Assembly: GCA_014189435.1 (NCBI GenBank)
Contig: CP050293.1
Coordinates: forward strand, 1,741,001 to 1,805,000
Origin: Mesorhizobium loti
GTDB taxonomy: Bacteria; Pseudomonadota; Alphaproteobacteria; Rhizobiales; Rhizobiaceae
Reading direction: 5' to 3'
Length of the DNA: 64,000 nt
The notes beneath the pieces are model-generated. The model was not told the DNA's origin. It searched no databases and saw only the letters and a program-made list of their open reading frames with translations. This document shows, piece after piece, positions 18,567 to 21,305 of this stretch (positions are counted from its first letter, which is position 1; the number at the start of each line of letters is the position of its first letter). The position numbers and the translations under genes were made by a program.

Positions 18567-19475
18567 TCATGCCAGCGCCGAACCGGAGAGGCGCGACAGC
18601 AGCCACTGGCGAAAGTCCTGCTCGGCTCCGGTCAGGCGCGCGGTCGACGCCTTGGTCAGAAAATGTCCCGATGTGCTCACGAGTTCGAAGTCGGAAAGCC
18701 TGACCAGCGTCTTGCTGTCGAGCGCCGCATCGACCAGCGGCCGCGAGCCCAAGAGCACGCCGGCGCCGGCCTTGGCCGCTTCCATGGCGGCGACGAAGCT
18801 ATCGAAGCGGTGCGATCGTCTGGGGTGGCCGGCCAGTCCGGCGGCGGCGAACCATTCCGCCCACATCTCGCGCGCGCCGGCAACCAGAAGCAGCGGCAGT
18901 GAGGTCCAGTCCCCGTCACCGGCCAAGCCCGGCGCCGCCACCGGCACGAGCCGCTCGGTGGTCAGCCTGTCGGCTTCGCGGCCGGGGAAGGATCCGTTGC
19001 CAAAACGGATGTCGAGCACGGAGCCCGGCAAGTCGTAGTCAGCGGGGCGATGGATCGTCACCAGATCGAGCTGGACGCGCGGCAGCGCCTTAGCCAGATC
19101 AGGCATCGCCGGAACCAGCATCAGCAAGGCAAAGGAAATCGGCGCCCGGATGGTCACGGTCTGGACGGCGCGTGGCTCGAAAAGTTCCGCGGTGCTGTTG
19201 CCGATGGTGGCGAAAGCCGACTGGATGTGAGGCAGGTAGGCCGCCCCCTCTGGCGACAGTGCGACGCCGCGCGCCAGCCGCGAAAACAGACGTGTCTTCA
19301 GCCGCTCCTCGAGAAACCGGATGTGCTGGCTGACGGCTGCCTGGGTGAGGCCAAGCTCGGCTGCCGCCGCGGTGAAATTCGACAGCCGCGCCGCGGCCTC
19401 GAAACTGCGCAGCCAGTCAAGCGGCGGCAAGGGTGGGATCGTTCTAGCCATTATAGATTTACGGTCATTGGCCAA
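18567..19475 (-). CDS. LysR-family regulator, GcvA-like, divergent from the oxygenase pair
   Basis: A 302-residue LysR regulator with N-terminal winged HTH (about residues 15-75, with NFTAAAAELGLTQAAVSQHIRFLEERL abbreviated here to its core LTQAAVSQHI) and a substrate-binding effector domain. An ATG at 19451 (MARTIPPLP) is an alternative start with a closer family fit. It is divergent from the oxygenase gene at 19570, the usual layout for a LysR activator of that operon, so it may sense a trimethylated phosphonate or betaine. Confidence 0.9.
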   Translation of the reverse strand: MANDRKSIMARTIPPLPPLDWLRSFEAAARLSNFTAAAAELGLTQAAVSQHIRFLEERLKTRLFSRLARGVALSPEGAAYLPHIQSAFATIGNSTAELFEPRAVQTVTIRAPISFALLMLVPAMPDLAKALPRVQLDLVTIHRPADYDLPGSVLDIRFGNGSFPGREADRLTTERLVPVAAPGLAGDGDWTSLPLLLVAGAREMWAEWFAAAGLAGHPRRSHRFDSFVAAMEAAKAGAGVLLGSRPLVDAALDSKTLVRLSDFELVSTSGHFLTKASTARLTGAEQDFRQWLLSRLSGSALA

Positions 19476-19569
19476 AAAATGATAATTGGAGTTATGCCTG
19501 TCGCGCGCTCAACATGCAATCGAAACCTGCGGATCGGACCGCAGGCGTAGCGGACAGGAACGGATCTCC

Positions 19570-20724
19570 ATGCTCACCCACGCGCTGATCGGCGACGAAG
19601 GCAGAACAATCGACCTTGGCTGGAAGGACGGGTCGCGCACCCGCTTTCACGCCATGTGGCTGCGCGACAATGCGCTGGACGACAAGACGCGCAGCGCCGG
19701 CAATGGCCAACGGCTCATCACCATCCTCGACATTCCCGCCGACACGAGGATTGGCGCGGCATCGGTCAAGGGCGGCGCCCTGGAAGTCAGCTTCGTGCCG
19801 GAGCAAAAAACGGTGAGTTTCCCAGCGGCATGGCTGAGCGCCAATGCCTATGATCGTAACGCGGCCCGTCAGCCCGGCTGGACAGGCGAGGCCACCGTGC
19901 GATGGACCAAGGCCTCGATGCAGAATTCGGTGCCGCGCGCCGGCTATGTCGCGGCCAGCCGCGATCGCGCCGTGCTGGGGCAATGGCTGTCGGCGGTGAA
20001 AACCTATGGCTTCGCGGTGATGGACGACCTGCCGACCGAATCCGGGGCGCTGTGCAACGTGTCCGATCTTTTCGGCTATATCAGGGAAACCAACTACGGG
20101 CGCTGGTTCGAAGTGCGCGCGGAGGTCAATCCGAGCAATCTCGCCTACACCAATCTCGGCCTGCAGGCACATACCGACAATCCCTATCGCGACCCGGTGC
20201 CGACGCTGCAGATCCTGTCCTGCATCGAAAATACAGTTGAGGGCGGCGAGTCCAGTGTCGTCGACGGTTTTGCCGTCGCGGCCGCGCTACAGGCCGAGAA
20301 CCCCGAAGGCTTCCGGCTGTTGAGTTCATGCCCGGCGCGCTTCGAATATGCCGGCTCATCGGGCGTGCGGCTGCAGGCGAAGCGGCCGATGATCGAGCTC
20401 GGACCCGATGGCGAGCTGATCTGCATCCGCTTCAACAACCGCTCGCTGGCGCCGACGGTCGATGTGCCGTTCGCCGACATGGAGGCGTACTACGCCGCCT
20501 ATCGCCGCTTCGCGGAACTGATCGAGGATCCGTCCTTCGAGGTGACGTTCAAGCTCGAAGCGGGGCAGGCGTTCATCGTCGACAACACGCGCGTCATGCA
20601 TGCACGTAAGGCGTTTTCCGGCACCGGCAAGCGCTGGCTGCAGGGCTGTTACGCCGACAAGGATGGCCTGCTGTCGACGCTCGCGGCGATCGAGCACGGG
20701 TTCAAGGAGGAGGCGGCGGAATGA
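19570..20724 (+). CDS. Fe(II)/2-oxoglutarate dioxygenase, TmpA-like or gamma-butyrobetaine hydroxylase-like
   Basis: A 384-residue non-heme iron oxygenase of the TauD/GBBH superfamily. The iron triad is His201 and Asp203 ([10 protein letters not shown]) and His344 (RVMHARKAF). The N-terminal GBBH-like domain keeps MWLRDN (residues 29-34), but the cysteine-rich zinc motif that normally follows is replaced by ALDDKT. The next gene, overlapping by four bases, is a PhnZ-like HD oxygenase. This pairing matches TmpA-TmpB, where TmpA hydroxylates 2-trimethylaminoethylphosphonate. Gamma-butyrobetaine hydroxylase is the alternative, and would not explain the HD partner. Confidence 0.85.
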
Positions 20725-21305
20725 GCGGCCAGGACCTGAACGCGGACACCATCGTCGAATTCATCGCCGACATCTTTGAGCGCCGGGGCGCGGAATCCTA
20801 TCTTGGCGAACCCGTGACCATGTCGGAGCACATGCTGCAGGGCGCCTGGTTCGCCGAAAAGGACGGCGCGCCCGACGAGCTGGTCGCGGCGGCCCTGCTG
20901 CACGACATCGGCCACTACACCAGCGAGTTCGGCACCTATTCGCCCGAGGATGTCGAGGACAAGCATCATGACGAGGCTGGCGGCGAGGTGCTGGCGCCGT
21001 TCTTTCCGCCTGTCATCGTCGAGTGCGTCAGGCTGCATGTCGCGGCCAAGCGCTATCTCTGCGCCACCGACCCGACCTATTTCGGCAAGCTCTCGCAGGC
21101 CTCGGTCCACACGCTGTCGCTGCAAGGCGGGCCGATGAGCGCCGAGGAGGTGGCCGAGTTCCGCAAGAACCCGTTCCACGAGGAAGCGGTCCGAGTCCGC
21201 ATCTGGGATGAGAGCGGCAAGATCGCCAACATGAAGACGCGGACGTTTCGCGACTACGTGCCGCTGCTGCAGCGGGTTGTCAGCGACTTTCGCGATCGCG
21301 CCTGA
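20721..21305 (+). CDS. HD-domain oxygenase, PhnZ/TmpB-like
   Basis: A 194-residue HD-domain protein. Candidate metal ligands are His37, His61-Asp62, His82/83, His106 and a later Asp. A Tyr27-x-x-Glu30 pair before EHMLQ matches the substrate-gating Tyr-Glu pair of PhnZ with a three-residue offset. PhnZ-type enzymes are mixed-valent diiron oxygenases that cleave the C-P bond of hydroxylated phosphonates, releasing phosphate; TmpB gives glycine betaine. Automatic annotation would call this a phosphohydrolase. It overlaps the oxygenase gene by four bases. Confidence 0.82.

Follow-up and report, generated by a model that had tools for sequence, protein, structure and literature searches.

The closest solved relatives of the gene pair described here are TmpA and TmpB, for which the primary paper is Rajakovich 2019. 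The Leisingera caerulea enzymes (PDB 6npb, 6npc and 6npd for TmpA, 6npa for TmpB) are encoded as a two-gene operon, according to PMC10574752. PhnY* and PhnZ (PDB 4mlm), which act on 2-aminoethylphosphonate, follow the same logic of two-step oxidative C-P cleavage, with a diiron HD enzyme that carries a YxxE loop. A third version, PhoF of Fonsecaea multimorphosa, is given in PMC10574752 as a fused PhnY-PhnZ and places the same activity pair in one pathway. Human gamma-butyrobetaine hydroxylase (GBBH; PDB 4bg1) resembles TmpA in fold family, iron triad, two Asn residues and most of an aromatic cage.

We analyzed a 64,000-nucleotide stretch of Mesorhizobium loti DNA (the window), from a host genome of 8.33 Mb in three contigs, in which a divergent LysR-type gene stands beside two genes of this kind (Table 1). 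As judged from sequence, the locus very probably encodes a TmpA-TmpB pair that acts on 2-trimethylaminoethylphosphonate and a LysR regulator dedicated to it. An earlier, sequence-only reading had proposed a pair for a trimethylated phosphonate, and this holds up well: both proteins pass the equivalog cut-offs, have TmpA and TmpB as their closest solved relatives and group with them in trees. As in Leisingera, the pair is made up of two genes, in contrast to the fused, fungal PhoF. The Leisingera enzymes, which are 61-62% identical to those of the window, have the same iron ligands, the same YxxE loop and the same residues for phosphonate and cage, and likewise lack a Cys motif. They come from a marine bacterium, whereas the window belongs to a soil or rhizobial genus; the divergent LysR is documented for the window locus, the comparison with Leisingera being one of proteins. 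Among named organisms, Mesorhizobium holds the closest relatives of both proteins (93% for TmpA, 91% for TmpB).

The three reading frames are open as had been read, and the enzyme genes overlap by four bases, ATGA. This four-base overlap recurs in 36 of the 38 loci examined, the window's own included, and the two exceptions are an 11-base overlap and a fusion. Between LysR and tmpA lies a gap of 118 bases.

Table 1. Positions of the features of the locus within the window
Feature	Position	Strand	Remarks
LysR-type regulator, 294 aa from ATG	18567-19451	-	Divergent from tmpA; Pfam HTH_1 and LysR_substrate
Candidate operator, 14-bp dyad ATAATTGGAGTTAT (window)	19482-19495	.	Genus consensus ATAATTTGARTTAT
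tmpA, 2-trimethylaminoethylphosphonate hydroxylase (predicted), Fe(II)/2-oxoglutarate dependent, 384 aa	19570-20724	+	NF049936, PDB 6npb, tree, residues
AAGGAGGAGG, probable tmpB ribosome-binding site inside the end of tmpA	20704-20713	+	Read from sequence
ATGA overlap, tmpA stop and tmpB start	20721-20724	+	Translational coupling inferred
tmpB, (R)-1-hydroxy-2-trimethylaminoethylphosphonate oxygenase (predicted), HD-domain mixed-valent diiron enzyme, 194 aa	20721-21305	+	NF049941, PDB 6npa, tree, ligands

Assignment of the two enzymes

The first protein scores 557.3 bits on the TmpA equivalog NF049936 (cut-off 400) and also passes the GBBH model TIGR02409, with 515.2 bits against a cut-off of 414.75. 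Its best solved relative is Leisingera TmpA (PDB 6npb; E 4.8e-147, 493 bits), to which it is 60.8% identical; for human GBBH, the match is E 8.3e-45 and 157 bits, with 31.4% identity. The iron triad His201, Asp203 and His344, noted in the earlier reading, is confirmed by alignment, and the GBBH-like fold proposed there is backed by the Pfam domains TauD and GBBH-like_N and by the 61% identity to a solved TmpA. The residues by which TmpA binds the phosphonate, given as N187, N287 and R288 in PMC9296572, would correspond to N190, N290 and R291 in the window protein, a mapping made by offset arithmetic at a constant offset. Every one of the 35 TmpA-clade rows, among them L064 as the copy from the window itself, retains R291, as do the six variant rows. 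Of the five carnitine-context or GBBH rows, three hold Phe at this position, L104 holds Arg and human GBBH holds Ala. Asn290 is replaced by Ser or Ala in 6 of the 35 clade rows. The aromatic cage of the window protein, Tyr176, Phe180, Tyr193 and Tyr361, is the same as in Leisingera TmpA, and we take the cage residues of human GBBH to be those numbered 177, 181, 194 and 366.

In a maximum-likelihood tree, from which L064 and the fused L102 were left out, window TmpA and 6npb fall in one 34-row clade with support of 100/100. An adjacent TmpB accompanies 31 of these rows; one has none (L101), and two, the window and 6npb, are ungrouped. The window protein lies outside the branch that holds human GBBH, which is very long, and long outgroup branches, that of human GBBH above all, leave the deeper order of the tree unsure. 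Alignment and tree group the first protein with characterized TmpA and not inside GBBH, as the sequence-only reading had anticipated, and we assign it to TmpA, not to GBBH. The N-terminal site reads ALDDKT in the window protein vs CPCSDC in human GBBH. Loss of the Cys motif had been described as unusual, but it is instead typical of the family, as all 35 TmpA-clade rows, Leisingera TmpA included, are without the motif and carry Ala35 and Asp37. Variant pairs outside the clade (L098-L100 and L102) retain the Cys residues, and in this alignment absence of the motif marks the TmpA clade.

The second protein passes the TmpB equivalog NF049941 (332 bits; cut-off 300), falls slightly below TIGR03276 (206; cut-off 214.6) and is well below the hydroxymethylphosphonate model (162; cut-off 300). 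Solved TmpB is its best structural relative (PDB 6npa; E 3.7e-76, 258 bits, 62.0% identity), with PhnZ reaching 104 bits and 33.7%. The ligands H37, H61-D62, H83, H106 and D163 do not vary among eight aligned TmpB proteins; for the roles of the diiron set and the YxxE loop, we follow PMC8177086. Tyr27 and Glu30 are present where the earlier reading had put them, and the three-residue offset from PhnZ that it described is right at Tyr24, Glu27, His34, His58 and His80 but not at His104/His106, where the offset is two. The TmpB tree was built without L103, ten Mesorhizobium rows that are near-identical, and L064, which duplicates the window protein. In it, the window protein and 6npa share a 22-row clade (99/97), and PhnZ stands outside it on a long branch. 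The second protein is thus placed with TmpB, contrary to the refuting condition of the earlier reading (a place in nucleotide phosphohydrolase HD clades), its ligands are complete, and we identify it as a predicted TmpB rather than a PhnZ, the comparison with PhnY*/PhnZ being one with the PhnZ half only.

Carnitine enzymes and other phosphonates as alternatives

Could the first protein be a GBBH that feeds carnitine metabolism, and the HD protein an unrelated phosphohydrolase? We regard this as hardly credible, although the match to TIGR02409 speaks for it, the protein is the only match of GBBH type in the genome at E 0.001, and a putative carnitine-degradation gene group, read from the encoded proteins alone, lies elsewhere in the genome. 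The TmpA model nevertheless outscores TIGR02409 on this protein (557 to 515), and across the genus sample (n=81) tmpA never occurs without tmpB. Moreover, GBBH-like genes in a carnitine context look different. Those of L091 and L092, assigned to carnitine by their neighbors only, adjoin beta-keto acid cleavage enzyme and carnitine-dehydrogenase-like genes (recognized by Pfam in L091 and by shared gene clusters in L092); their products form a separate branch, have Phe for Arg291 and reach only 325 and 329 on TIGR02409. As the GBBH-like gene sits directly beside tmpAB in these loci, the two coexist. The model is exceeded by five of seven further TmpA-clade proteins encoded beside TmpB (L085, L088, L090, L094 and the tmpA product of L091, at 426-448), with those of L082 and L086 missing the cut-off at 411.5, and by three database proteins (P0038, 514; P0053, 491; P0078, 448). 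That TIGR02409 passes TmpA and not the two carnitine-group GBBH-like proteins scored would explain wrong database names. The expectation that standard annotation would name the pair as GBBH and phosphohydrolase is correct for many entries, which say gamma-butyrobetaine dioxygenase or HD domain protein, but some close relatives are already named TmpA or TmpB. For this pair, the older names of carnitine enzyme and phosphohydrolase are misleading.

A different objection would keep the oxidative TmpA/TmpB-type chemistry and assign it another phosphonate as main natural substrate, for example a less methylated aminoethylphosphonate. Such a substrate is suggested by the variant pair in L099, in which TmpA-like and PhnZ-like genes lie beside phnW, phnA and a phosphonoacetaldehyde dehydrogenase gene, all three over cut-off, and by L098 and L100, which have the same phnW, phnA and dehydrogenase gene clusters. 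However, the variant pairs branch separately, retain the Cys motif and have an HD partner that fails the TmpB cut-off, which the window pair passes, and the cage and phosphonate residues of the window protein match Leisingera TmpA. Gene context within the genus also argues against it. Beside the divergent cassette in L082 lie a trimethylamine-methyltransferase-like gene and genes for an FMN oxidoreductase, a solute-binding protein and an ABC ATPase with CBS domains, and homologues of the last three are found near the cassette of L083, the other same-genus relative with a divergent one, a context that fits a quaternary-amine setting. We consider a different main substrate for the window pair improbable and prefer 2-trimethylaminoethylphosphonate.

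Several related arrangements were encountered. The variant pairs of L098-L100 have a divergent LysR and possibly another substrate. TmpA-like/TmpB-like fusions, each a single open frame without a stop, occur in L235, L241, L243, L229 and L102; their hosts are Streptomyces triticagri, two Kitasatospora, a gammaproteobacterial MAG and an alphaproteobacterium. Four of the five fusions pass the TmpA cut-off and none passes that of TmpB, and for the L229 fusion the GBBH model (479) outscores the TmpA model (429). TmpB-like genes with no TmpA within 3.5 kb are present in L236, L219 and L220, those of L220 and L236 passing the TmpB cut-off; in L236, the next gene encodes a PhyH-type dioxygenase, and in L220, from Sneathiella, genes for a DAO-GCV_T enzyme, a LysR, an aminotransferase and a PF01663 protein are nearby. 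In the window's own genome, a predicted HD-domain protein (L002:1369-1998) is encoded between putative beta-keto acid cleavage enzyme and carnitine dehydrogenase genes.

Distribution of the pair and its LysR neighbor

In 81 genomes of the genus, scanned at thresholds of E 1e-60 for tmpA and E 1e-40 for tmpB, tmpA is present in 54 and tmpB in the same 54, side by side, and the other 27 have neither. A pathway described from a marine bacterium is now placed, together with a regulator, in two thirds (54 of 81) of the sampled Mesorhizobium-like genus. Across 289 genomes of the class, 11 have a TmpB and 19 a TmpA over the respective cut-off. Each of the 11 TmpB proteins adjoins a TmpA over cut-off, and 18 of the 19 TmpA proteins adjoin an HD protein, the exception being in G184; of these 18 partners, 11 pass the TmpB cut-off, two reach 257 and 289 bits and five score 162-221. 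The seven partners under the cut-off belong to the 17 class pairs outside the genus and indicate that the TmpA model extends to pairs whose substrates may differ. A TmpB over cut-off occurs in 13 of 299 genomes from the phylum, all 13 belonging to the same genus or class, and of 171 loci in named genomes, the best 80 include 72 with TmpA beside TmpB.

Presence of the LysR gene follows that of the pair. It divergently adjoins tmpA in all 20 tmpAB loci fetched from the genus (of 54; the window's own included), and no LysR of at least 40% identity was found in any of the 20 regions fetched from the 27 tmpAB-less genomes, in a search confined to those regions. Most of the flanking genes persist in these 20 tmpAB-less regions: all 20 have the ATPase-like gene, 17 have the GNAT gene and 16 have the FMO gene. 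The last of these (21559-23361) was considered as a pathway partner and rejected, as its retention in 16 of 20 such regions places it outside the unit.

The empty sites offer some indication of how the cassette has moved. One (L124) retains about 105 bases of the LysR 3' end, pointing to loss of the cassette in that lineage, and another (L125) is a clean gap. Gain also seems to happen, as two same-genus genomes have a divergent cassette away from this neighborhood, at a distant place in G293 and on another contig in G342. In L070 and L071, the cassette lies on the other side of the FMO gene, and a LysR that is 68% alike vs a tmpA that is 92-95% alike points to exchange within the genus. We also considered whether the cassette is a horizontal island; against this, the GC3 of LysR, tmpA and tmpB (81.5-87.1%) matches that of the neighbors (80.2-86.6%), and the LysR remnant in L124 supports loss there.

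The best NCBIfam matches of the LysR are GcvA and a choline-sulfate regulator, both under cut-off. We built a tree from the window LysR, 15 of the 25 other tmpAB-linked LysRs and 11 of the genome's 15 own paralogues. The window protein and 12 of the 15 linked rows, from four families, form one clade (100/99) apart from the 11 paralogues. Outside the genus, a LysR is divergently adjacent in 6 of the 17 class loci; three of the six fall in the window LysR clade, and the remaining three, those of L098-L100, fall outside it. LysRs of this clade thus stand next to tmpAB in three further families, although not at every locus. A divergent LysR is also present in 36 of the best 80 of 171 named loci, all 10 loci of Mesorhizobium or its nearest kin (L164-L173) and loci of Ruegeria, Shimia and Kiloniella among them, clade membership having been determined for the 15 linked rows above. 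Present and absent together with the pair in the regions fetched, the LysR belongs to the tmpAB unit in this genus, and we propose it as a dedicated regulator of tmpAB.

Candidate operator and proposed mechanism

The 14-bp dyad in the LysR-tmpA gap is a candidate operator for this LysR. With mismatches counted against ATAATTTGAATTAT, it is present within two mismatches in all 18 core genus loci, window included (none in eight, one in nine and two in the window itself), at 62-87 bases before tmpA, and the window holds a single site at this level. Much of the remaining gap varies more than the dyad across the core loci, which are close relatives, so that part of its conservation is shared descent. 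In the five LysR-linked loci checked beyond the core group (L082, L083, L087, L088 and L090), no copy was found (best 4-7 mismatches), which means either that the operator has changed or that the match reflects the history of the genus. An exact half-site pattern search did not find it in L098-L100.

We infer substrate, product, coupling, inducer and operator function as follows. TmpA would use Fe(II), O2 and 2-oxoglutarate to set an (R)-hydroxyl on the P-adjacent carbon of 2-trimethylaminoethylphosphonate, and TmpB, as a mixed-valent diiron HD oxygenase, would then cleave the C-P bond in an O2-dependent step that yields phosphate and glycine betaine, its Tyr27-x-x-Glu30 loop presumably capping the second iron until substrate binds. 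Translation of tmpA and tmpB is likely to be coupled. The LysR probably binds the dyad and would induce tmpAB when the phosphonate or a betaine-type compound is sensed. More tentatively, and with somewhat less than even confidence, we suggest that a dedicated LysR, "TmpR," senses a trimethylated phosphonate or betaine-type molecule and acts via the ATAATTTGARTTAT dyad to induce tmpAB regardless of phosphate status, that the phosphonate serves soil bacteria as a source of glycine betaine and phosphate, and that the unit is an ancient cassette of the Alphaproteobacteria that is lost and regained as a whole. Within the open-license literature, we found no description of a LysR regulator or operator of the pair, nor of the pair in Mesorhizobium. 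While the enzymes simply add a member to a known pathway, it is the regulator and the dyad that merit testing.

The window's genome also encodes PhnJ of C-P lyase and the PhnW transaminase, so that TmpAB probably operates alongside at least two other phosphonate routes. On land, CMP-2-trimethylaminoethylphosphonate was raised in the metabolome of old leaves of mycorrhizal poplar, according to PMC8880370, which is a hint at most of a terrestrial source of the phosphonate. Counting against the proposed pathway, no transporter was found among the neighbors scanned (17062-23361). An Rfam scan of 12000-30000 gave a sole match, the Rhizobiales sRNA Atu_C8 (RF02502, 99 bits), at 25011-25125, just before an ilvI-like gene.
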